Below are positions 3-18,860 of a DNA stretch of 63,967 bases, piece after piece. The stretch comes from Thiomargarita sp. GTDB lineage: Bacteria > Pseudomonadota > Gammaproteobacteria > Beggiatoales > Beggiatoaceae. Position numbers and translations under genes: made by a program. Location: NCBI GenBank assembly GCA_020718845.1, contig DYRG01000013.1:1-63967 (forward strand), in the 5' to 3' direction. Each line of letters starts with the position of its first letter. Within the stretch, counting starts at the first letter, position 1. A model generated the notes under the pieces. The model had not been told where the DNA came from. It made no database searches and worked only from the letters and a program-made list of their open reading frames with translations.

Positions 3-2024
3 GATCCTGTTCGTGAAGCAATTCATTCCGTATTTTTATATCATGCAATTCAAGCGGGCATGGATATGGGCATTGTCAATGCGGGACAATTAGCCATTTA
101 TGAAGATTTGCCAAGAGAATTAAAAGAAAGCGTCGAAGATGTGGTTTTAAACCGTAGAGAAGATGGTACAGAACGGCTTTTAGATATTGCTCAAAAATAC
201 AAAGGCGGTTCTTCGGTTCAAGAAAACAAACAAGATTTAGAATGGCGTAATTTACCCGTTAAGAAACGTTTAGAACACGCTTTAGTCAAAGGCATTACAG
301 AATACATAGAAACTGACACTGAACAAGCCCGTTTAGAATCAAATCAACCTTTGGATGTAATTGAAGGTGCTTTGATGGATGGAATGAATATTGTGGGCGA
401 TTTGTTTGGGGCGGGGAAAATGTTTCTTCCGCAAGTTGTAAAATCTGCCCGCGTCATGAAAAAAGCGGTTGCCTATTTAATGCCTTACATTGATGCAGAA
501 AAAGAGAAACTCGGTAATCTTTCTCAAAATAATGGCAAGATTTTAATGGCAACTGTCAAAGGTGATGTTCATGATATTGGAAAGAACATTGTTGGCGTGG
601 TGTTGCAATGTAATAATTTTGAAGTGATTGATTTAGGCGTGATGGTTTCTGCGGAAACAATTTTACAAACAGCGCGTGAGAAAAAATGCGATATTATTGG
701 TTTGTCGGGATTGATTACGCCGTCATTAGATGAAATGGTTCACGTTGCCAAAGAAATGCAGCGTCAAGGGTTTCAAATTCCTTTAATGATTGGGGGAGCA
801 ACCACCTCAAAAGTCCATACCGCCGTCAAGATTTCTCCACATTACAATTTGCCTGTGGTTTATGTGCCAGACGCGTCGAGAGCAGTGGGCGTTGCACAAA
901 GTTTGTTATCAGATGGATTAAAAGAAAAATATGCGGCTGATATTAAAGAAGAATATGCGCAAATTCGTGAGAAACGCTTAAATGCACAAGAAACCCGCAA
1001 ACACGTTTCATTGCAACAAGCGAGAGCAAATAAATTAGTTACGCAATGGCATTCTCCGAAAGCAAGTTGTGATTGTGGTCATCATAAGAAAGTCGATCAT
1101 TATCAACCAATTAAACCCTCTTTTCTAGGATTGAAAGTTTTTGAGGATTATCCATTAGAAGAGATTAAAAAACGAATTGATTGGAGTCCGTTTTTCCAAA
1201 CGTGGGAATTGGCGGGGAAATATCCGCGTATTTTAAATGACGAAGTAGTTGGAAAAGAGGCTCAAAAACTCTTTCATGATGCACAAATGATGCTTGAGCA
1301 AATTGTCAAAGAAAAATGGTTACAAGCCAAAGCAGTAATCGGTTTCTTTCCAGCCAATGCAGTTGAAGATGATCTTGAAATTTATACGAATGAAGATCGT
1401 CAAACAGTTCGAATTAAAACACATCATTTGCGACAACAACTTTTTAAATCTGGCAAACCCAATTTATGTTTAGCAGATTTCATTGCACCTAAAGAAAGCA
1501 ATGTTGAAGATTATATTGGGGCTTTTGCGGTAACAACAGGCATTGGAATTGAAAAGAAATTAGCCGAGTTCGAAAAAGAACATGATGATTACAATAGTAT
1601 TATGTTAAAAGCCTTAGCGGATCGATTAGCAGAGGCTTTTGCAGAACATTTACACGAACGGGTAAGAAAAGAGTTTTGGGGTTATGTTTCAAATGAAAGT
1701 CTTTCAAATGAAGAATTGATTGCAGAAAAATATCGAGGAATCCGTCCCGCACCAGGTTATCCAGCCTGCCCAGAACATACAGAGAAAGCGAATTTGTGGG
1801 CGTTATTACAACCCGATCAAAATGCTCAAATGACTTTAACAGAAAGTTTTGCAATGTTACCGACCGCCGCGGTTTCTGGATGGTATTTCTCACATCCAAA
1901 TTCGCAATATTTTGGAGTTGGAAAAATCGCTAAAGATCAAGTAGAAGATTATGCACAACGAAAAGGCATTTCTTTAGAAGAAGCTGAGAAATGGTTAGCC
2001 CCAATTTTGGGTTATGAATCTTAA
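3..2024 (+). CDS. metH: Cobalamin-dependent methionine synthase, C-terminal part (5' end outside window)
   Basis: MetH moves a methyl group from methyltetrahydrofolate to homocysteine through a cobalamin cofactor in the cytoplasm. The open frame runs unbroken from base 3, so the 673 visible residues are only the second half of a protein of about 1200. What is seen: the end of the folate domain, the cap domain, the cobalamin domain with the lower-ligand motif DVHDIG (His at about visible residue 190), and the C-terminal AdoMet-binding reactivation domain with [12 protein letters not shown] near bases 1743-1778. The homocysteine and most of the folate domain lie upstream of the window. It is convergent with the HPP gene, 15 bp away. 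A start at 60 is only an internal Met. Family assignment is very secure. Confidence 0.96.
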
Positions 2025-2039
2025 TTAATGAAACGTTAT

Positions 2040-2558
2040 TCATTTCAAATATAAATAAAAAGAAAGTGGATAACGGCGATGAGGAGAGAATAGATTAATC
2101 AAAAAAGCGAGCGTTAAAACTAAAGCAACATTGAGCAAAACAATTTCAAATAAACGTACAGAACCCATTTGTTGTGCACTAAACAATGTAAATAACGCCG
2201 TTCCGCCTGATGGAGGATGAACACAATGCAAATAGTGAGTTGTTAATAACGTAATTGCAATGACAACACCACTAATTTGAATTAAAGTCAAACTATTGAT
2301 TAAATTAGGTATTTTTGAACCCAACAATCCGAATAAAACCGCAAATAAATGCCCACCCAAAACGTGCCAAGGTTGAGAAAGATCACCATGCGGTCGATAG
2401 AAAATTAAAATCGCCGACGCGCCCATCGATACTAAAAGAACGGGTTGGAAAATTGAGGAAGTCAGGCTTTCACAAAGAAACCCAATTAAGGTAATTGTTA
2501 AACCCGCTCCAAGCGCACTAATCCAAATATCTAAATGTGTTTGTTTCATGAAAGGCAT
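2040..2558 (-). CDS. HPP family integral membrane protein
   Basis: A 172-residue protein with about four to five hydrophobic segments and the family signature CVHPPSGGTALF in the middle, which gives the HPP family its name. Members are small inner-membrane proteins; some are linked to nitrite transport in plastids and cyanobacteria, but the bacterial role is mostly unproven. The start is an ATG with no strong Shine-Dalgarno. It lies between metH (convergent) and the chemosensory cluster on the same strand, 97 bp downstream of the cheW-like stop. Nothing in the context gives a substrate. Confidence 0.85.
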   Translation of the reverse strand: MPFMKQTHLDIWISALGAGLTITLIGFLCESLTSSIFQPVLLVSMGASAILIFYRPHGDLSQPWHVLGGHLFAVLFGLLGSKIPNLINSLTLIQISGVVIAITLLTTHYLHCVHPPSGGTALFTLFSAQQMGSVRLFEIVLLNVALVLTLAFLINLFSPHRRYPLSFYLYLK

Positions 2559-2655
2559 TTTAGCAAATATTTTGCTTAAAAAACCTTGAGGAAAATCAAT
2601 AAAATGGGAGAAATAAAAGAAAGGAAATTAAAGGGACAAAATGCGTCCCATAAAT

Positions 2656-3150
2656 TTAACTAATCATGAGTTCTTTGATAGAAAGGACTTGCTCTAAATT
2701 TAAAATCGTAATGAAACCACCGTCAATGCGCCCAACATTTTGAATGAAATCCGAACGAATTCGATTTCCAAAAGGCGGCGGTGCTTCTAAATCTGAAACC
2801 GCTAAATTAATCACATCATTTACCGCATCGACCACAATGCCCATTTTAACGGATTCTTGGTTGTAATTAACGGTCACAATTAAAATACAAGTACGTTTAT
2901 TTTCTTTGATCGGTTCTCCACCCATTCTAATGCTTAAATCAATGACGGGTAACACATGACCCCGCAGATTTAAAACCCCTCTCACGCATTCAGTTACCAT
3001 TGGAACAGGTGTTAAATGTGTGTATTCAATGATTTCATTAATGTAAGAAATTAATACCGAATAGATTCGTTCATTTAACGTAAAAACTAAGAACTGTTGT
3101 TTGTCTTGTGAAAGATTGATGCTTGATTGAAAATGTTCGACGGTTTGCAT
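2656..3150 (-). CDS. CheW-like chemotaxis/signalling adaptor
   Basis: A 164-residue single CheW-like domain: the beta-barrel pattern is visible, including the conserved segment RGVLNLRGHVLPVIDL near residues 60-75 and IVVDAVNDVINL later. CheW-type proteins couple methyl-accepting receptors to a histidine kinase at the inner membrane. It is the last gene of a compact minus-strand cluster; its ATG follows the stop of the hybrid kinase with one base between, so the two are almost certainly co-translated. No CheA is visible, so whether it serves the neighbouring kinase or a distant CheA is open. Confidence 0.9.
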   Translation of the reverse strand: MQTVEHFQSSINLSQDKQQFLVFTLNERIYSVLISYINEIIEYTHLTPVPMVTECVRGVLNLRGHVLPVIDLSIRMGGEPIKENKRTCILIVTVNYNQESVKMGIVVDAVNDVINLAVSDLEAPPPFGNRIRSDFIQNVGRIDGGFITILNLEQVLSIKELMIS

Positions 3151-3151
3151 A

Positions 3152-4330
3152 TCAATTTACTCTTTCTAAAGGAACTTGAAACCAAAAACTACTCCCTTTT
3201 CCAACAATACTATCTACGCCTAATTCTCCACCCATATTATCACAATATAATTTTGCTAATGCTAATCCCATTCCTAACCCTCCATATTCACGGGTTGTCG
3301 AGCCGTCACCTTGGCTAAATGCTTGAAATAAACGCTCTTGTTGATCTAAATTAATCCCGATTCCAGTATCGGAAATTGTAAAACGTAATTCAATTTGTTT
3401 GCCGAAATCTTCAACAACTTCTACTTTAGTTTCTATCTTTCCAGAGGGCGTAAATTTGATTGCATTTTCGAGGAATTTGTTTAAAATTTCTTTGACGTGA
3501 TCGTAATTGCCTTTGACGGTTGGCAAATCATCAGGGAGGATTTGATGAATAGCAAGTTTTTTAGTTAATACAGCAGGGGTGATATTAGTGAGGCAATCGT
3601 GAATTAATTCTCGGATTTCAAAGGTGGCAGTTTCTTGAATTAATTCGCCAGAAAATTGCTCTGCAAAACGTAACATATTATCTAAAATACTTAACAACAA
3701 TTTTCCCGATCTTAAAACTTCTTCTGCCATTTGAGTTTGTTCACCGTTTAGAGGGGTATCTTGCACCATTTCTTCTGTGACACCTAAAATGATATTCATG
3801 GGTGTACGAAATTCGTGGCTAATATTACGGAGAAACTGGGTTTTTAAAACGGAAACTTCGTGAGCTTTTTGATAAGAAAGTTGTAATGCGGACATTAAAG
3901 AACGTACTTGCGCAGTTTGATTTTCAACTTCTTTCTCAAGATTACTGCGCAATTTTGATAATTCAATATGGGTTGTAACCCGCGCAAACAGCTCATCATT
4001 TTGAAAAGGTTTGCTAACGTAATCCACTGCACCTGCTTGAAAAGCCTTGATTTTATTTTGAGTATCGCCCAATCCAGAAATAAATAAAATTGGGATATTG
4101 CTCAATTTGCTATCGGCTTTCATTTGTTTGCACGTTTCATAGCCGTCCCAACCTGGCATAACCACATCTAATAAGATTAAGTCGGGGCGATTTTCTCTGG
4201 CGACAGTAATGGCGCGTTGACCACTGTTCGCTAATAAAACAGCAAACCCTTGTTGTTCAAGGATTTCGTTGAGTGCGGCTAAATTGACGAGGCTATCGTC
4301 GACCACCAAAATGGTTGCTTTATCAGACAT
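3152..4330 (-). CDS. Response regulator-histidine kinase fusion protein
   Basis: 392 residues with no membrane segment. An N-terminal receiver domain comes first (DDS near residue 12, phospho-acceptor Asp in LILLDVVMPGWDGYE near 55, KPF near 107). A short coiled coil follows, then a HisKA dimerisation domain with the phospho-His in NISHEFRTPMN near 170, then a HATPase domain with an N box (LNKFLENAIKFTP), DTGIGI and GGLGMGLALAK. Domain order REC-HisKA-HATPase suggests a soluble kinase whose activity is set by phosphorylation of its own receiver. It sits between an MCP and a CheW-like gene, so it may take the place of CheA in a non-flagellar pathway; that is inference. Confidence 0.9.
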   Translation of the reverse strand: MSDKATILVVDDSLVNLAALNEILEQQGFAVLLANSGQRAITVARENRPDLILLDVVMPGWDGYETCKQMKADSKLSNIPILFISGLGDTQNKIKAFQAGAVDYVSKPFQNDELFARVTTHIELSKLRSNLEKEVENQTAQVRSLMSALQLSYQKAHEVSVLKTQFLRNISHEFRTPMNIILGVTEEMVQDTPLNGEQTQMAEEVLRSGKLLLSILDNMLRFAEQFSGELIQETATFEIRELIHDCLTNITPAVLTKKLAIHQILPDDLPTVKGNYDHVKEILNKFLENAIKFTPSGKIETKVEVVEDFGKQIELRFTISDTGIGINLDQQERLFQAFSQGDGSTTREYGGLGMGLALAKLYCDNMGGELGVDSIVGKGSSFWFQVPLERVN

Positions 4331-4365
4331 TTGTTACGTTTTTTGAGTAGTAGCCATGCAATGTG

Positions 4366-6666
4366 CTAGGAATGTAAAGGAGCGTCTTCGTTATCAAGAT
4401 GCTCAAAGGTTTCCAGTGTATCATTATCTTGCAGCTTAAAAAATAGCATTAATTGCTGCAACCGTTCAGCTTCGTGATTCATGGTTTCGGCGGTGACGGC
4501 GAGCGTTTCAGAAGCCGCGGCATTATGTTGAGTAACATGGTCTAAATTCACCATTGTTACATTAATTTGTTTAATGCCAGCGGCTTGTTCATCAGAACTA
4601 TAGGTAATGCCTTCGATTAATGCGGCGGTATTTTGAGCGCTTGGGACGATTTCTTTTAATAATTTCCCTGCTTTATCAGCAACTTGCAGACTGTTCGCCA
4701 CTAAATTTAAGATTTCACGCGCCGAAATTTGGGTATGCTCCGCTAAGGTTCGCACTTCCTCGGCAACCACCGCAAAACCGCTGCCGTGTTCACCTGCTCG
4801 AGCGGCTTCGATCGCGGCATTTAGCGCCAATAAATTCGTTTTATACGCGACTTCTTCAACGACCCGCACTTTGCTGGCAATTTGCTGCATCGAGTTGACC
4901 GTGTCATTGACCGCTTTGCCGCCTTCATCTGCCCGCATCGAGGACGCGCTTGCGATTTTGCTGGTGTGACGTGCATTGTCGGCGTTTTGTTCGATGGCGG
5001 AAGTCATTTCTTCCATTGCGGCAGAAATTTCTTCAACGCCCGCGGCTTGTTGGGTTGCACCGTCGCTTAATGCTTTGGCAGTGAAAGAAACTTCATTTGC
5101 CATTTCAAATAAACGATTGGTAGTTTCTCTAACTTGTTTAACCACTTGATACAAATGGGCTTGCATTTCATTTAAAGCGCGCCGTAATTTACCTAATTCG
5201 TCATTATTTTCGACAGTAATATTTCTACGCAAATCACCTGCGGCAATTCTTTCCATTAGTTTTATATTATCGTTCAAACTGGTGGTAATAAGTCGAGTTA
5301 TCCAAGTTGCTGATAACACGCCAATTAGAATACTCACAATCACAAAGAATAAAATAATAGATAACGTATTTTCCATTTCTATGGTAATTGCACGCTCTTG
5401 ATTTAAAAGGATTTTTTGGATTTCTTTTACGGTTTGATAAGCGCGTTCATCCATTTGCTTATCTAGTTGGTGTTGTTGAATTTCTAGGGTTGCATATTTA
5501 TCTAATTCTACAACGTAATTTTTAATTGAGTTGATTAAATCTTGCAAAAGATCAATATTTTTTTGGGTTTTTAATTTTTCAAGTAGTTTATTAGTAATAT
5601 TCAGTGCTTTTCCTAAATAAAAAACGACTTGAATTAAGTAGTGCTGATCGCCATTTCTAAAAAACAGCGCTTCTTGTTGACGTGCTAAGAGATAGAAATA
5701 AATGATTTGATTTGTATCATAAACTTTTTCCAAGCGTTCATCCGCTAAAACGTTTGTTGTAGAAACACTTTCTTTTAAATCTGCAAATTGCTCATTACGC
5801 AAACTTTGAAGATTTCGGATAATTTCAGAAACACTAAATTCAATATTTTGTAACGCTTCCTCATCTTCAGGTTGCTTAGTTTTTATTTGAGCATTATTTT
5901 TTTTATCTATATGATTTTTATATTGTTGTTGATAAGTTTCATATAATTGGCGAATGGTATCTAATTTATCGATATTTTGAGTTATTTGTAAGCCAGCCCG
6001 CAACTTCTTAATGATATTCAAAAATTGCTGACCTAAACTATCCACACTTAATGCTTGACGCGCATCATATTCATAGAGCAAATTCGTTTGTAGAATTCGA
6101 GCTTCCATAAACAATCGCACTAATTGATCGATGTAATTTTCAGAAACCAATTTAACATTAATCGTGCGTTCAATTTCATCGATATTTTCTTTTAACAAGT
6201 CCCGTTGCGTGCTATCTATAAAAAAGCTTTTTTGTAGCACATCTTCCGCCACTTTATTCATTTCTTGAGCAGCAATTCTCTTTTGCTCTGTAAAGCCATG
6301 ATAATTAACGAAATTTTTATCATATTCTTTTACATCAGCGATAATTTTTTCTAATTGTTCTTGATGAGCATCTGATTTAAGTAGTGTTTTTAATTGGGAA
6401 GTTTGATTCATTAAACTTTTGAGTAAAATTTGAAAGTTTTTGACGGACATTTCATTGTTATGAATCACGAAGTCTTTTTCTTGAAGGCGAGTTTGATAAA
6501 GCGTTTTAATAAAATCCTCGATGTTCATGATTTTTGCGGTTCGGTCGACAGCTTGTCGTTGACCAAACCAGCCAAAAAACGCCGTTCCTAACGTCAGGGT
6601 TAGAATTAGAGTAAAAATAAGCCCTAATCGCGTGCTTAATTGAAGATTTTTTAGCATAATGACCAC
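4366..6666 (-). CDS. Methyl-accepting chemotaxis protein with large helical sensor domain
   Basis: 766 residues. An N-terminal membrane segment lies near 13-34 and a second near 440-460. Between them is a roughly 400-residue all-helical periplasmic domain containing two EKDF/EALFFR-type segments (TRLQEKDFVIHN near 55; RQQEALFFRNGDQHY near 325), which resembles the HBM (helical bimodular) sensor fold. A HAMP domain follows, then the signalling hairpin with tip TNLLALNAAIEAARAGE. There is no C-terminal CheR-tether pentapeptide. The 6666 start is a GTG with AAGGA 12-13 bases upstream; an ATG at 6657 is possible but lacks a ribosome site. First gene of the MCP-kinase-CheW cluster. Ligand unknown. 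Confidence 0.92.
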   Translation of the reverse strand: MVIMLKNLQLSTRLGLIFTLILTLTLGTAFFGWFGQRQAVDRTAKIMNIEDFIKTLYQTRLQEKDFVIHNNEMSVKNFQILLKSLMNQTSQLKTLLKSDAHQEQLEKIIADVKEYDKNFVNYHGFTEQKRIAAQEMNKVAEDVLQKSFFIDSTQRDLLKENIDEIERTINVKLVSENYIDQLVRLFMEARILQTNLLYEYDARQALSVDSLGQQFLNIIKKLRAGLQITQNIDKLDTIRQLYETYQQQYKNHIDKKNNAQIKTKQPEDEEALQNIEFSVSEIIRNLQSLRNEQFADLKESVSTTNVLADERLEKVYDTNQIIYFYLLARQQEALFFRNGDQHYLIQVVFYLGKALNITNKLLEKLKTQKNIDLLQDLINSIKNYVVELDKYATLEIQQHQLDKQMDERAYQTVKEIQKILLNQERAITIEMENTLSIILFFVIVSILIGVLSATWITRLITTSLNDNIKLMERIAAGDLRRNITVENNDELGKLRRALNEMQAHLYQVVKQVRETTNRLFEMANEVSFTAKALSDGATQQAAGVEEISAAMEEMTSAIEQNADNARHTSKIASASSMRADEGGKAVNDTVNSMQQIASKVRVVEEVAYKTNLLALNAAIEAARAGEHGSGFAVVAEEVRTLAEHTQISAREILNLVANSLQVADKAGKLLKEIVPSAQNTAALIEGITYSSDEQAAGIKQINVTMVNLDHVTQHNAAASETLAVTAETMNHEAERLQQLMLFFKLQDNDTLETFEHLDNEDAPLHS

Positions 6667-11115: not shown

Positions 11116-14100
11116 CTAACTCTGATCCAATTCCATATCAATGCCCAACGAACGAATTTCTTTCACTAATACATTGAAAGATTCCGGCATATTTGCTTCC
11201 ATTCGATGATCGCCGTCGACAATATTTTTGTATATCTTTGTTCTACCATTCACGTCATCGGATTTCACGGTCAACATTTCTTGTAATGTATAAGAAGCTC
11301 CATAGGCTTCTAATGCCCAAACTTCCATTTCACCAAAACGTTGTCCACCAAACTGTGCTTTACCGCCTAAAGGTTGCTGTGTTACCAAACTATAAGGTCC
11401 AGTTGAACGTGCGTGCATCTTATCATCAACTAAGTGATTTAATTTCAACATGTGCATATAACCAACGGTGACTTTTCTTTCAAATGCTTCACCCGTTCTT
11501 CCGTCGTATAATTGCACTTGTCCATCATCTGACAAATCAGCTAATCTCAACATCATTTTGATTTCAGATTCGTGCGCACCATCAAAGACTGGCGTTGCCA
11601 TTGGAACACCCGCAATTAAATTGTCCGCTAATTCTAAAATATCACCGTCAGAAAATTTCTTCAGCTCTTCTTTTTTACCAGTGGTGTTATAGATTTGCTC
11701 TAAAAAGTCTTTGAGTTTTTTGAGGCGAGCTTTATCGTATTTTTGACGATATTCATCAAGCATTTTCTCAATTTTTTCACCCAATCCTTTCGCCGCCCAA
11801 CCTAAGTGGGTTTCTAAGATTTGTCCAATGTTCATCCGTGAAGGAACGCCTAACGGATTTAAAACAATATCAACCGGTTTTCCACTATCCATGAAAGGCA
11901 TATCTTCAACGGGAACAATCATCGATACAACCCCTTTGTTTCCATGGCGACCCGCCATTTTATCTCCAGGTTGAACGCGACGTTTCACTGCCAAATAGAC
12001 TTTCACCATTTTTAAAACCCCAGGTGGCAAATCATCACCCGCTGCGAGTTTCTTACGTTTTTCTTCAAAATGTTCATCATTGAGTTTGCGTTGATTTTTC
12101 AAACGCACGTGCGCCCGATCTAACGCATCATTCAATTCATCTTTTTGTAAGGTAATTTCAAACCATTGTTCGTGTTGCAAACTTGCTAAGTATTCTGAGG
12201 TAATTGTACCGTCAGATTTCAAACCTGATGGTCCTCTCAAAGCGATTTGTCCGACTAATGCTCTTTCTAAACGTTGAAAAGTATCGTCTTCTAAAATCCG
12301 ATAACGGTCGCGCAAATCCTTTTGGAATTTATCTAATTCAGCTTTTTCAATGCTTTGCGCACGCGAATCTTTTTCTACGCCGTCGCGTGTGAAAACCTGA
12401 ACATCAATTACTGTTCCAAACGTTCCAGAAGGCACTCTTAATGAGGTATCTTTAACATCCGATGCTTTCTCACCAAATATCGCTCTTAACAGTTTTTCTT
12501 CGGGTGTTAATTGGGTTTCACCTTTGGGAGTAACTTTACCGACTAAAATATCCCCAGGTTTAACTTCTGCACCAATATGAATAATACCCGCTTCATCCAA
12601 TTTTCTTAATGCAGATTCAGCAACATTTGGAATATCATCAGAAATATCTTCAGGTCCTAATTTGGTATCGCGTGCAACGCATACTTGCTCAACAATGTGA
12701 ATGGAAGTGAAACGATCTTGCTCAACGACTCTCTCTGAAATTAAAATAGAATCTTCAAAGTTGTAACCATTCCAAGGCGTAAAGGCAACTAACATATTTT
12801 GACCTAATGCTAATTCACCTAAATCAGTGGAAGGTCCATCGGCTAAAACGTCACCTTTTGCAATCTCATCACCAGGTTTAACTAAAGGACGTTGATTAAT
12901 ACAAGTGTTTTGGTTTGAACGGGTGTATTTTGTTAAAGAATAAATATCAACGCCGCTTTCATCTTCTTTCACTTCGTTATCATTGGCACGAACCACAATT
13001 CTTCCCGCGTCAACGGTATCAACAATTCCACCCCGTTCTGCGATAACAACCACACCCGAATCGATTGCAACCGTACGTTCCATTCCAGTGCCGACTAATG
13101 GTTTCTCTGCACGAATTAAAGGAACAGCTTGACGTTGCATATTTGAACCCATTAATGCACGGTTCGCGTCGTTGTGTTCTAAGAAAGGAATTAAAGATGC
13201 CGCCACAGAAACAATTTGTTTCGGAGAAACATCCATATAACTCACTTCAGTGGCTGGTTTTAACATTGATTCTTCTTTATACCGACAAGGTACAAATTCT
13301 TCTGTTAAATACCCTTTTTCATCAACAGGGACATTTGCCTGTGCAATCACGAAGTTTCCTTCTTCAATCGCTGACAAATATTCCACTTCATCGGTGACGC
13401 GAGTTTTAGTAACTTCTTCACCGTTTTCATTAATGACTTTCTCGGCAGCGACTTTACGATATGGAGTTTCTAAGAAACCATATTTGTTGGTTCTCGAATA
13501 AACCGCCAATGAGTTGATTAATCCAATGTTTGGACCTTCAGGCGTTTCAATAGGACAAACCCGACCATAATGGGTTGGATGAACGTCGCGGACTTCAAAT
13601 CCCGCTCTTTCACGCGTCAAACCACCCGGCCCTAACGCAGAAACCCGACGTTTGTGCGTAATTTCAGAAAGCGGGTTGTTTTGATCCATGAATTGAGAAA
13701 GTTGGCTCGATCCAAAGAATTCTCTAATCGCCGCAGAAACCGGTTTTGCATTCATTAATTCTTGCGGCATCATGCTTTCTGATTCAGAGAGCGACAAACG
13801 TTCTTTAACGGCTCTTTCTACCCGCACCAAACCGATTCTGAATTGGTTTTCTGCCATTTCACCGACGCTACGAATTCTTCGATTGCCTAAATGATCGATG
13901 TCGTCGACTTGACCGTTGCCGTTACGAATATTGATTAACTCTTTGATTACTAAGAGAATATCTTCGTGCGATAAAATGCCTTCGCCGATCACTTCTTCAC
14001 GTCCAACGCGGCGATTAAATTTCATTCGACCGACCGTCGACAAATCGTAACGATCTAATTTAAAAAACAATCCGTTGAAAAGTTCTTCGGCGGCTTCACG

Positions 14101-15261
14101 AGTCGGCGGTTCGCCAGGACGCATCATTCGATAAATTTCAACTAACGCATCGGTTTGCGTTTTAGTTTGATCGATGCGCAAAGTATCCGAAACATACGGA
14201 CCGTGATCTAAGTCATTGGTATATAAGGTTTTAAATGTCGTAATGCCGGTGATGCTTAATTTATCGAGCAATTCTTGATCGATTTGGGTATTAGCCTCGA
14301 CCAAAATTTCGCCCGTCGACGTGTCGATAATGTCGCGCGCTAAAACCTTGCCGTGTAAATATTCAGGCGGAACAGTGAGTTGCGTAATGCCCGCTTTTTC
14401 TAACTGTTTGATATGTCTAGCAGTTATGCGTTTGCCACTTTCAACGATAATGTTGTCGTCCGAATCTTTGATGTCGAACGCAGAAATTTCACCGCGCAAC
14501 CGTTCGGGCGAAAATGCCCATTGCCAACCTTGCTCAGAATTTGAGAATTGATTGGTTTCAAAAAACATCTCGAGCATTTGTTGATTGGTGTAATTCATTG
14601 CGCGCAACAGAATCGTGACGGGCAATTTACGGCGACGATCAATCCGCACAAACAAACAATCTTTCGGATCAAATTCAAAATCTAACCACGATCCACGATA
14701 AGGAATAATTCTCGCTGAAAACAATAACTTACCCGAAGAATGTGTTTTGCCTTTATCATGATCGAAAAACACCCCAGGCGAACGATGTAATTGAGAAACG
14801 ATCACCCGTTCCGTTCCATTAATTACAAAAGTCCCGTTGCGCGTCATCAACGGCAAATCACCCATATAGACTTCTTGTTCTTTGATGTCTTTGATTGTCT
14901 TGGGTTTATGGTCTTTGTCTTTTGCGTCTTTATCGTAAAGCACCAATTGGACTTTGACCCGCAACGGCGCGGCGTAAGTCATTCCCCGAATAATACATTC
15001 CTTCACGTCGAAGGGAGGTTTGCCCAGCCGATAACTGACATATCTTAATTCGGCATTCCCCGAGTGGCTTTCAATCGGAAACACCGACGAAAAAGCCGCG
15101 TGAAGCCCAAGAGGTTCGCGGTGATCGGGTAATTTATCTTGTTGCAAAAATTCCCGATAAGATTTAACTTGTATCTCGAGAAGATAGGGAATTTTCTGAA
15201 GGGTGGTGCGTTTGCTAAAATCCTTGCGGATGCGCTTTTTTTCAGTGAAAGAATATGCCAT
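11116..15261 (-). CDS. rpoB: DNA-directed RNA polymerase subunit beta
   Basis: The frame is open from 15288, but the start is placed at the ATG at 15261: GGAG lies six bases upstream and the product begins [15 protein letters not shown], matching family convention. This gives 1381 residues. The rifampicin-pocket region ([22 protein letters not shown]) and the C-terminal [20 protein letters not shown] segment are both intact. It pairs with rpoC downstream. Upstream it is separated from rplL by a membrane-protein gene and a terminator, which departs from the usual rplL-rpoB linkage, so rpoB probably has its own promoter within 15262-15860. I could not point to that promoter with confidence. Confidence 0.99.
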
Positions 15262-15315
15262 CATGTACTCCGCTTGCTGGATGTTCAAAAATACGATTTC
15301 TTTTAAAACTTGAAT

Positions 15316-15804
15316 TTAACTAAACAGATCATCAATAATAAAAAATAGAGCAATTAGACAATAAGTTGCTGCATTTATTAGAATACTACTCCTAAACGGT
15401 TTGTCGATATTTTTGCTCAAATATAAAACAACAAATTCAATTAAGGTACTTAACATATAGGCAATAGGAATTCCTAGTCGTACATCAGTATTATATAGAT
15501 CAATATCTTTATACCTATGAGAGAATAATAAACTCGTTGTTAAAATTCCTAAAACAGTTGAAACTATATTGCTAATAAAAACAATGCCAATCATTTGCCC
15601 AAATGTTATGTTTTTTTGTAAGTAAGCTAAAATTTTTGTTTCTAAAATTACTACTATCAAAAATACCCATGGTAGAAATATATTTAGGTAATACATATAT
15701 GAAAATGGTGGAGGAAGTAATCCTACACTTTGGTTTTTAGAAGATATGGCATAGCTTATCGTTGTATAAAATATAAAAACAAAAGCGACCAAATATTTTT
15801 GCAT
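15316..15804 (-). CDS. Small hydrophobic membrane protein of unknown function
   Basis: 162 residues with a signal-like N-terminus followed by three or four hydrophobic helices (LNIFLPWVFLIVVILETKIL, MIGIVFISNIVSTVLGILTT, AYMLSTLIEFVVLYLS, INAATYCLIALFFIID). The base composition is more A/T-rich than in the flanking rpo/rpl genes. AAGGA lies just upstream of the ATG. I do not recognise the family. Its position between rplL and rpoB, downstream of a strong terminator, marks it as an insertion into a normally unbroken operon. Confidence 0.7.
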   Translation of the reverse strand: MQKYLVAFVFIFYTTISYAISSKNQSVGLLPPPFSYMYYLNIFLPWVFLIVVILETKILAYLQKNITFGQMIGIVFISNIVSTVLGILTTSLLFSHRYKDIDLYNTDVRLGIPIAYMLSTLIEFVVLYLSKNIDKPFRSSILINAATYCLIALFFIIDDLFS

Positions 15805-15860
15805 ACATCCTTTGTATTTTATATAACACTCTAGTTTTAATGATATTTCTGAATAATATT

Positions 15861-15904
15861 AAAAAAGCACAAAAAGGCTGGCAATTGAGGGCATCTGCCA
15901 GCCT
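15861..15904 (-). terminator. Rho-independent terminator between rplL and the membrane-protein gene
   Basis: Perfect 9-bp stem: AGGCTGGCA at 15875-15883 against TGCCAGCCT at 15896-15904, with a 12-base loop. On the minus strand the stem is followed by T5-GTGC-T6. It is GC-rich and much stronger than a partial attenuator. It lies 120 bases after the rplL stop. Confidence 0.85.
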
Positions 15905-15983
15905 ATAAATCATTCGATGGTTGCTTTAGAAAGCTCAAGTTATTTTTTCAATTAAAATAGTTAATTACGGTTATTTATATATA

Positions 15984-16015
15984 ATTCGTTCCCATAAATA
16001 ACTATAGGAACGAAT
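15984..16015 (-). repeat. Hairpin just downstream of rplL
   Basis: 9-bp inverted repeat, ATTCGTTCC (15984-15992) with GGAACGAAT (16007-16015), starting 10 bases after the rplL stop. There is no T-run after it, so it is more likely an mRNA-stabilising or processing hairpin in the rplL 3' region than a terminator. In Escherichia coli the rplL-rpoB spacer carries an RNase III processing site at a comparable place; function here is inferred. Confidence 0.5.
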
Positions 16016-16024
16016 AAAAGAAAA

Positions 16025-16396
16025 CTACTTGATTTCTACTTTCGCGCCAGCGTCTTCAAGTTTTTTCTTGATGTCTTCTGCGTCGGCTTTAGAAATGCCT
16101 TCTTTCAAAGTTGTGGGTGCGCCTTCAACAGCGGCTTTCGCTTCACCTAAACCTAAACCAGTGATTGCACGAACCACTTTAATGACTTCAACTTTCTTCT
16201 CGCCAAAAGACGCTAAAATGACGTTGAATTCGGTTTGTTCTTCAACAACTGCTGCTGCCGCTACAGGTGCTGCGACTGCAACGGCTGCTGCCGCAGAAAC
16301 GCCGAATTTGTCTTCCATCATTTTGATGAGTTCGACGATTTCCATGACGGTTTTGCCAGCAATGGCTTCTAAGATTTGATCATTTGATAAGGACAT
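16025..16396 (-). CDS. rplL: 50S ribosomal protein L7/L12
   Basis: 123 residues. An N-terminal dimerisation domain is followed by an Ala/Val-rich hinge (about residues 35-55) and the C-terminal factor-binding domain with the typical [20 protein letters not shown] segment. It forms the ribosomal stalk that recruits EF-Tu, EF-G and other GTPases. It follows rplJ by 35 bp on the minus strand and shares its leader. It is followed by a hairpin and a strong terminator, so it probably ends the transcript that begins at the L10 leader. Confidence 0.98.
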
Positions 16397-16959: not shown

Positions 16960-16980
16960 TGGTTCACCTCAGTTTCATTA

Positions 16981-17135
16981 GGACAAAATAAGCATTTGAA
17001 ATGCTCGGTTATAATACGGCTCTGATTTCTAAAAATCTCCGCCGTCTGCGTAGGTTGTTTTGAGAAACAATTAACGATTCCTCGACCTACGGTCTTTGAC
17101 GACTATCAGGCTTTTTTTTACTCATCCTAATAGTC
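16981..17135 (-). promoter_or_regulatory. L10 (rplJL) autoregulatory mRNA leader
   Basis: On the minus strand a long stem is formed by GACCGTAGGTC and the later CCTACGCAGACGGC (plus-strand positions 17084-17094 and 17041-17054). A purine-rich GGAGATTTTTAGAAATC segment and then the rplJ ribosome site follow. This matches the proteobacterial L10 leader, to which the L10-L12 complex binds to shut down translation. A second hairpin (17101-17110 with 17126-17135, 9 of 10 pairs plus one G-U) sits just upstream. The upstream A/T-rich stretch 17150-17231 should hold the promoter but gives no clear consensus. Confidence 0.8.
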
Positions 17136-17231
17136 CTTACAAAGTCTTTTTCTTTTCTAGTTCTTAAAAAACTAAAAATTAATATCTTATTAATTTTCTT
17201 CAATTTTAAATTAGAAATATTATATTATTTT

Positions 17232-17723
17232 TTATTTTAATTTTGCTATTTGTGAAATGTCTAGTTCAACAGGCAATAAATGTCCAGAATCTGATACTAT
17301 TAATCGTACACGTTTTCTTTTGTTATTAATATCTACAATCACACCCTTTAAATCATTTACAAACACAATTTCATCTATTTTAAAAGGTACCTTTCGATGA
17401 GAATCACAAATAATATTTGCTATTTGCTCACCATCTTCTGAACCAACAATTCCTCCAATCGCTGTTCCTGCAATTCTTGCTGCTCCAAACGCTCCAGCAC
17501 ACCCAAACAATGCAGAAAGTCCAAACGTAAAAGGAGCGGTAACCAAAGAAGCGGCACAAGTACTCGTTGCTCCCACTGCTGCCAAACCTAAAGTGCTTCC
17601 TACAACAACACCCATCGCTCTACCGCCTTTTACTCCAATAGATTTGGCAGTTTCACAATCTGCATTAACTATTTGATTTGAAAGTGCAATAACAGTAGCT
17701 GCAACTATATTTTTTAATTTCAT
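17232..17723 (-). CDS. Exported glycine/alanine-rich protein of unknown function
   Basis: The frame extends to 17741, but AGGAG lies seven bases before the ATG at 17723, so the product is 163 residues starting MKLKNIVAATVIALS. A cleavable signal peptide is likely (ending near VNA/DCE). A Gly/Ala-rich hydrophobic stretch follows (about residues 25-100), like a glycine-zipper membrane segment. A small basic beta-rich C-terminal domain with KGVIVDINNKRKRVRLIV ends the protein. Cys residues at about 23, 54 and 69 could pair in the periplasm. Family not recognised. It is part of an accessory group inserted between rplA and the L10 leader. Confidence 0.65.
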   Translation of the reverse strand: MKLKNIVAATVIALSNQIVNADCETAKSIGVKGGRAMGVVVGSTLGLAAVGATSTCAASLVTAPFTFGLSALFGCAGAFGAARIAGTAIGGIVGSEDGEQIANIICDSHRKVPFKIDEIVFVNDLKGVIVDINNKRKRVRLIVSDSGHLLPVELDISQIAKLK

Positions 17724-17753
17724 AACATTTCTCCTGCGCATGAGAAAATAAAA

Positions 17754-18350
17754 TTATTTATAAAAATCAATGATATACTGCAAAACACCTAAAATTTTTT
17801 CTACGTTATCAATGTAATAATGTTTTTTGTCAATGGTAATAATATTTTGTTCTAATTTAAGAAATTGCCAAATTTCACCAGTTGTTACACAACCATAAAT
17901 CGTATTGATTTCACCTTTATTAAAAATCTGCGATCCAATCATTTGAGCAACACATTGTCCTAATCCCGCTCCAATATCGTGTTTTTTCGCTTCAATTAAT
18001 GCAAAGATCGGTTTTTGAATAGTATGTTTCATTTCACCTTTGGTTAAAATAAAATCACATTCACCGACTAACCCTTTACTTTGATCAACATCTAATCGCT
18101 CACCAGAATAAATTCCAAAACATTTAGGATTTCTTTTCTCAATTTCAATTAAAATAGGTGCAACAATAAATTCTGAACGGGCTTTTTCAGTTGAAGAAGA
18201 AGAAACCAAACTTAGTCCAGCCACTAAAGTTTCTTTTAGCCAACTACTTGATTCTATTGGCAAAATATTACCAAATAAATTTTCAGAATCTTGCTCTTCT
18301 AAATTAAATTCTTGTTTTACTTTTGCAAGCGTAAAATGACTGTACGACAT
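17754..18350 (-). CDS. PD-(D/E)XK nuclease-like protein
   Basis: 198 residues. The core reads GECDFIL, then about 15 residues later FALIEAKK, then GLGQCVAQMIGSQIFNKG. This is the Asp, Glu-x-Lys, Gln pattern of the PD-(D/E)XK fold, with the Gln helix matching restriction-endonuclease-like domains. An acidic upstream helix (RSEFIVAPILIEIE) is also typical. No DNA-recognition domain is visible, so it may be an uncharacterised nuclease or a fold relative. It lies in a tight minus-strand row with the DUF2442 gene five bases upstream and the exported protein about 30 bases downstream. Confidence 0.65.
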   Translation of the reverse strand: MSYSHFTLAKVKQEFNLEEQDSENLFGNILPIESSSWLKETLVAGLSLVSSSSTEKARSEFIVAPILIEIEKRNPKCFGIYSGERLDVDQSKGLVGECDFILTKGEMKHTIQKPIFALIEAKKHDIGAGLGQCVAQMIGSQIFNKGEINTIYGCVTTGEIWQFLKLEQNIITIDKKHYYIDNVEKILGVLQYIIDFYK

Positions 18351-18355
18351 ATCTT

Positions 18356-18586
18356 TTAATCTTCATATAATGTTTCTGGGGCAATATCTGCACCGTTTCC
18401 CCAACAAATTGTCCAACCATCAATAAAAAATTTTTTAAAATACTCTTTTTCTTTTAATGGTTCAAACATTTCACCTTTTAACCACTTTGAAAAGTCAACG
18501 ATTTTAGAAATGCCATTATCAAATGTTAATTTGATTTTATAATCAACAACATACTCGGCTTCTATTACAACAGGAAGATAATTCAT
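18356..18586 (-). CDS. DUF2442 domain protein
   Basis: The frame opens at 18616, but AAAGG lies close before the ATG at 18586 (MNYLPVVIEAEYV), so that start is preferred; it gives 76 residues. The sequence KIKLTFDNGISKIVDFSKWL and the C-terminal GWTICWGNGADIAPETLYE are the DUF2442 pattern. Members are short, single-domain proteins frequently encoded next to DUF4160 proteins, as here, and the pair is often listed as toxin-antitoxin-like. Which partner, if any, is toxic is not shown. Confidence 0.85.
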   Translation of the reverse strand: MNYLPVVIEAEYVVDYKIKLTFDNGISKIVDFSKWLKGEMFEPLKEKEYFKKFFIDGWTICWGNGADIAPETLYED

Positions 18587-18599
18587 AAACCTTTTTCCT

Positions 18600-18860
18600 T
18601 TAATTAAGCGGTGCAATTTTACTAAAAGATTTATCTTGTCGCATATTTTGCCAATTTTCTATTAATTCATTTTGATGAAGCAACGTCCATTCTTTAATTA
18701 GTCGTTTCGCAGTTATAGAAGAAACGTTTCCTTTCAACATTTCACCATTAAAATCAAATACTCCTCTTTGTCCTTGATATTCTGCGTGAAAATGCGGTGG
18801 ATTATGCTCGTTATAGAACATTCTAATAACAATCCCAAAAAACATTGAAATATGCGGCAT
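18600..18860 (-). CDS. DUF4160 domain protein
   Basis: 86 residues beginning MPHISMFFGIVIRMFYNEHNPPHFH; the NPPHFHAEY motif and the following GVFDFNGEMLKG are the DUF4160 signature. It ends 13 bases before the chosen start of the DUF2442 gene, so the two form an operon-like pair. It follows rplA on the same strand across a 38-bp inverted repeat. The function of the family is unknown; the conserved His residues could bind metal. Confidence 0.85.
   Translation of the reverse strand: MPHISMFFGIVIRMFYNEHNPPHFHAEYQGQRGVFDFNGEMLKGNVSSITAKRLIKEWTLLHQNELIENWQNMRQDKSFSKIAPLN

Follow-up and report, generated by a model that had tools for sequence, protein, structure and literature searches.

A predicted membrane-protein gene between the apparent ancestral rplL-rpoB attenuator and rpoB in a Thiomargarita genome

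A hairpin followed by a T-run, located downstream of rplL in Thiomargarita sp. (contig DYRG01000013.1 of assembly GCA_020718845.1, of which a stretch of 63,967 nt, here called the window, was analyzed), is by its stem and its orthologous place the conserved gammaproteobacterial rplL-rpoB attenuator. We favor the reading, at a probability of roughly 0.78, that this ancestral attenuator permits partial read-through and that a membrane-protein gene later entered behind it, where the read-through would now transcribe it. RNA polymerase coming from rplJL would mostly stop at 15871-15904 and partly read through, and rpoBC would thereby obtain a smaller share of the transcripts. A small membrane-protein gene would later have entered between the attenuator and rpoB, and the read-through fraction would transcribe it as the first gene of a membrane gene-rpoB-rpoC segment. 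The read-through and its share, the co-transcription and the foreign or new origin of the gene are inferred from the sequence.

The sequence, the list of open reading frames (ORFs) and folding revealed on the minus strand the order rplL, hairpin 1, hairpin 2 with its T-run, an ORF for a 162-aa membrane protein, and rpoB, which bears out the two hairpins and the membrane-protein gene that a first-pass annotation of this DNA had placed ahead of rpoB. The features are as follows:

16025..16396, minus strand: rplL, ribosomal protein L7/L12, 123 aa (ORF; Pfam Ribosomal_L12, 5.2e-30; stop at 16025)
15984..16015, minus strand: hairpin 1, 3' of the rplL stop, 14 pairs (fold z -3.7)
15871..15904, minus strand: rplL-rpoB attenuator (hairpin 2 plus T-run), AGGCTGGCAG...TTGCCAGCCT (covariance model R1, match at 15867-15909, and fold)
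15808..15813, minus strand: AAAGGA, probable ribosome-binding site of the inserted gene (read from the sequence)
15316..15804, minus strand: inserted gene for a 162-aa protein with four hydropathy-predicted membrane segments (ORF, hydropathy)
11116..15261, minus strand: rpoB (ORF; start taken as residue 10 of the listed ORF)

The rpoB start is probably 15261, as the annotation had also implied, and not the longer TTG start at 15288, because relatives align from residue 9-10 of the listed ORF.

A hairpin of the form GGCTGGYR...CCRGCC, followed by four or more T, recurs between rplL and rpoB of relatives, and E. coli K-12 carries GGCTGGTGACTTTTTAGTCACCAGCC-TTTTT at the same place. The core pattern was present in 64 of 80 named gammaproteobacterial spacers (65 of 81 with E. 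coli), a set that is rich in Pseudomonas, not thinned, and holds a single genome of the family of the window (L020, with a contig as long as that of L100). In the window, the element occupies the rplL-rpoB interval on the strand of both genes and combines the GGCTGG.../...CCRGCC stem and T-run with recognition by a model of other copies. Its hairpin, at 15875-15904, consists of 10 contiguous pairs including an outer A-U (previously counted as 9 GC-rich pairs), one A.A mismatch and then 2 inner pairs, and is followed by TTTTGTGCTTTTT. A 71-nt stretch around it folded at -20.3 kcal/mol (z -3.4; 0 of 200 shuffles as good), and a longer stretch of 131 nt reached a z of only -1.8, with 9 of 200 shuffles as good. 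It is missing from the listing of a simple terminator scan with a loop limit of 8, probably because its loop of 10 exceeds that limit.

Support for the stem came from alignment A1, which comprises 44 of 55 listed copies, after 11 duplicates or near repeats were removed by hand; the window is not among the 55. The 10-pair stem was kept in 99.8% of cells and 6 of the 10 pairs were changed on both sides, neither of which was reached by any of 500 shuffles; selection of the copies had relied on the outer arms or on a hairpin scan, which in part predetermines the percentage and the outer pairs. The double changes were concentrated in the inner four pairs (42 of 45), which the arm pattern did not constrain; the hairpin scan through which the 13 family copies were chosen did. 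Model R1, built from A1 and hence with the window left out, recognized the window copy with 28.5 bits (E 4e-6 in a search of the window). This copy also ranked first in its own genome (28.5 bits, E 1.8e-4), followed by a match of 19.4 bits, among the 150 of 537 first-look candidates that were scored. Nine of the 10 R1 pairs form in the window copy, the innermost being A.A, and the outer A-U is added to them; two model pairs are changed on both sides relative to the commonest pair, and two relatives (L091 and L092) share both changes. Its score is below that of 12 of the 13 family copies on which R1 was built.

In a class-wide sample, R1 matched 57 of 79 spacers on the operon strand at E 0.01. 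This sample was drawn from a list of 276 genomes, 253 of them with an rpoB match; the genomes shown were those with the highest rpoB similarity and did not make up the full list. About every second one shown was taken, family members and one too-short contig were left out (the latter being replaced) and five from the top were added. Of the 80 genomes fetched, all except L178 had a measurable spacer, and at least two (L175 and L204), on contigs equal in length to those of alignment rows L026 and L080, are not independent of these. R1 found nothing at E 0.01 in 22 of the 79 class spacers or in 19 of the 33 family spacers, so that loss of the element is possible.

These data bear on the view of the first-pass annotation that a new, strong and full terminator came with a foreign gene and that the old partial attenuator was lost. 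A hairpin of the terminator type is present, but R1, built without the window, recognizes it, its arms and place agree with those of relatives that lack the gene, and the window spacer holds no second attenuator copy. The main point of that view is ruled out by the shared pattern, the A1 covariation, the R1 match and the ranking in the own genome, and we consider it extremely improbable. The supposed replacement is the attenuator itself, common to E. coli and most of the Gammaproteobacteria sampled. Nor is the word strong apt, because, of 109 other pattern-fitting cores in a set without thinning, 106 are at least as stable as the window core (-15.4 kcal/mol). What looked like a new barrier is thus a normal regulatory hairpin, and a plausible misreading is corrected. 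A spacer scan found one weak site of -8.3 kcal/mol upstream of hairpin 2 and no hairpin/T-run site of -8 kcal/mol or lower between the attenuator and rpoB. The element starts about 115 nt behind the rplL stop in the window versus a median of 51 nt in the class sample.

The E. coli rplKAJL-rpoBC operon resembles the window in having the same GGCTGG...CCAGCC-T5 hairpin at the same place, with further hairpins upstream. It differs in that rpoB follows about 250 nt on, with no annotated gene between, whereas 605 nt and the 162-aa gene separate the two in the window. The E. coli attenuator decouples ribosomal from polymerase gene expression (PMC4670729), and PMC2777011 mentions that RNase III cleaves in rplL-rpoB. 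Hairpin 1 of the window, with 14 pairs and -17.1 kcal/mol for a 61-nt stretch (z -3.7; 0 of 200 shuffles as good), has AT-rich flanks, lacks a good T-run and is perhaps a 3'-end or processing structure; hairpins upstream of the attenuator are present in E. coli too. A dispersed repeat was rejected for hairpin 1, as its arm pattern occurs at one place only in its own genome.

The attenuator region is also covered by Rfam RF00630 ("Pseudomonas sRNA P26"), with 74.5 bits in E. coli and 76.4 bits in P. fluorescens. Matches on this region were located at 1931-1992 of L128 (E. coli K-12) and at 6789-6854 of L025, and P26, which stands without a function in a review table (PMC9029176), is probably the attenuated 3' end of the rplJL mRNA. 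The window attenuator differs from P26: RF00630 found no match at its gathering score (36 bits, whole window), at E 5 (3801 nt) or even at E 10 (221 nt), and at the family threshold of at least 36 bits the window holds no member.

The distance between attenuator and rpoB is 605 nt in the window, 2072 nt in L126 and 32-217 nt in the remaining 12 family members that carry an attenuator. It has a median of 98 nt and a maximum of 220 nt in 57 class spacers, and a median of 145 nt in 64 named loci, the longest of which are 647 (L024) and 364 nt. Judged by these distances, the gene has been added behind the attenuator. Two other long spacers, of 731 nt in L024 and 675 nt in L193, contained no convincing gene, their longest ORFs being about 115 and 67 aa, respectively. 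L126 (genome G016), of the same family, is like the window in carrying genes between the same attenuator and rpoB, but its insert is different, measuring about 2 kb and holding two genes for D12-class adenine methylases, one of them apparently incomplete. In Lactobacillaceae, nrdHEF entered between rplL and rsmC (event F37 in PMC8046335), so that genes were likewise added after rplL inside the rpoBC operon; that case concerns Bacilli and other genes, and the attenuator is not discussed in the available text of the article. Sequence comparison thus makes an insertion at this place a rare event, yet one of a known kind. Small insertions have been described as the first step of operon separation (PMC8046335, the main text of which makes no mention of Thiotrichales or Beggiatoa), and this gene block ranked highest in conservation among the blocks compared in proteobacteria (PMC4481853). 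Even this block can accept a gene exactly between attenuator and rpoB. Within the part of the literature covered, no title or abstract was found on a gene between the attenuator and rpoB in this family.

The inserted ORF has 162 codons and 26.6% G+C, compared with 41.5% in rpoB. Hydropathy predicts membrane segments at residues 42-60, 71-89, 110-128 and 139-157, and the N-terminus looks hydrophobic by eye. Searches with the protein found no Pfam and no NCBIfam family at E 1 and a best PHROG match of 0.39, which is at chance level, so that it was placed in no known family of these collections. At E 1, 12 of the 41 other genomes of the family gave weak matches (best 0.004), and at E 0.01 so did 8 of 369 class-sample genomes, its own excluded, none of them convincing in either set; the best class match (5.4e-4) lies in a frame with four stops, and some weaker ones lie in open frames. 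None of 397 other genomes in a phylum sample matched at E 0.001, and a pattern search returned 15 matches, none of which was confirmed as a relative. A phage, plasmid or virus origin was rejected for want of a match in those collections. A single-sequence structure model with five helices (mean pLDDT 55.6) was too poor for a fold search. The missing homologs, with no convincing one in any collection searched, would agree with the ORF being no gene at all and the spacer being long AT-rich non-coding DNA. This is very unlikely, since 180 codons of the 597-nt insert are open without interruption, a length that none of 2000 first-order Markov sequences reached (maximum 132), T makes up 47% of the second codon positions, as it does for membrane proteins, and AAAGGA precedes the ATG. 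The best reading is that of an acquired or new gene; probably it was acquired, because it is AT-rich and has no convincing relatives. The earlier description as a foreign membrane-protein gene between rplL and rpoB therefore holds to that extent, as does that of a terminator-type hairpin ahead of it. The place of the gene behind the attenuator suggests that it may be expressed in step with rpoBC.

The family comprises 42 genomes, the same 42 being returned by a gene-order search; 38 have an rpoB match, and the regions of the 37 others besides the window were fetched. Including the window, 33 spacers were measurable, as L106, L117, L124, L125 and L127 have no rplL on the fetched stretch. R1 matched 13 other family spacers, all of which are alignment rows and match by construction, and it scored 27 bits on the rplL contig of G014 (L106), a genome outside the model. 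The 19 spacers with no match at E 0.01 are those of L102, L104, L105, L107-L116 and L118-L123; with filters off, chance-level matches appeared in such spacers (L115, 11.1 bits, E 0.37; L113, 9.7 bits, E 1.4). In a FastTree phylogeny of five proteins, 18 of the 19 fell into one clade without any copy (local support 0.99), and the nineteenth, L123, paired with the element-bearing L126. Several deeper branches of this tree are weak, and the label of L106 as lacking the element was corrected by the R1 match on its rplL contig. The five relatives grouped with the window (L091, L092, L093, L097 and L101; support 0.985) carry the attenuator. One clade of the family thus seems to be without it and, lacking a detectable copy, offers a natural comparison for the worth of the element. 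Because 5 of the 19 no-match spacers (L107, L109, L110, L111 and L112) have other hairpin/T-run sites of -8 kcal/mol or lower, termination in these may have been replaced and not lost. In L107, positions 856-4949 form a stretch of about 4 kb between rplL and rpoB without an ORF above 105 aa, and the rplL C-terminus departs from that of relatives; either an insertion or an assembly fault would account for it. Separation of rplL from rpoB is seen in G015 and is probable in G029. In G015, the genes downstream of rplL encode Excalibur and DUF29 domains, and rpoB is located on a different contig, preceded by opposite-strand genes. In G029, about 8 kb upstream of rpoB contained no rplL, which is located on another contig, so that this genome is probably split too.

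The annotation had concluded that RpoBC must depend on a new promoter, which does not follow. Nothing requires one, because no terminator-like site was found to separate the ORF from rpoB and promoter-like matches exceed chance only slightly: 12 in 3 kb versus 7.6 +/- 2.8 expected, or 1.6 sd above chance in AT-rich DNA. Several of them lie on the right strand inside the insert, including a minus-strand TTGGCA-16-TATAGT at 15590-15563 with 10 of 12 matches. This site, in an insert with a G+C content of 27% or less, would suit an insert that brought its own promoter and now mainly drives rpoBC from within, the attenuator only ending the rplJL mRNA. Decoupling would seem to be tolerated in the family, as one clade has no attenuator match and in G015 the two genes occupy different contigs and have other neighbors. 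That rpoBC is driven mainly in this way is nevertheless unlikely, because the excess of promoter-like matches in AT-rich DNA is slight and the attenuator stem still forms, two model pairs having changed on both of their sides. The likeliest state appears to be partial read-through that now crosses one additional gene, and the link between ribosome and polymerase genes is probably kept. A wider reading, which we likewise regard as doubtful, is that the attenuator is coming apart in the family, with a gene behind it here, no detectable copy in one whole clade and a split in one or probably two relatives, the window being an early stage whose insert already holds the main rpoBC promoter. If this were true, polymerase supply would be set by independent promoters.

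Other features of the operon were noted. Rfam Arrc08 matched just upstream of rplJ in E. coli (L128, 738-1005) with 38.2 bits, against a gathering score of 219, and at chance level (13.6 bits) at the same place in the window, 16973-17185; the match may belong to the L10 leader. The operon has a second insertion, between rplA and rplJ (window 17232-18860), that consists of a DUF4160/DUF2442 pair, above the Pfam cut-offs and resembling the toxin-antitoxin pair DhiT/DhiA below the NCBIfam cut-offs, together with two further genes. The ORF at 17232-17741 encodes a 169-aa protein, the C-terminal part of which is like the end of the organism's own NusG (36% over 78 aa, pairwise E 1e-10) and the front half of which is signal- or membrane-like by eye. 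The product of 17754-18350 belongs to an unnamed protein family that is represented in 33 of 42 family genomes, with 9 matches in its own genome and as many as 65 in one relative, and a relative of it is also found between rplA and rplJ in L123.
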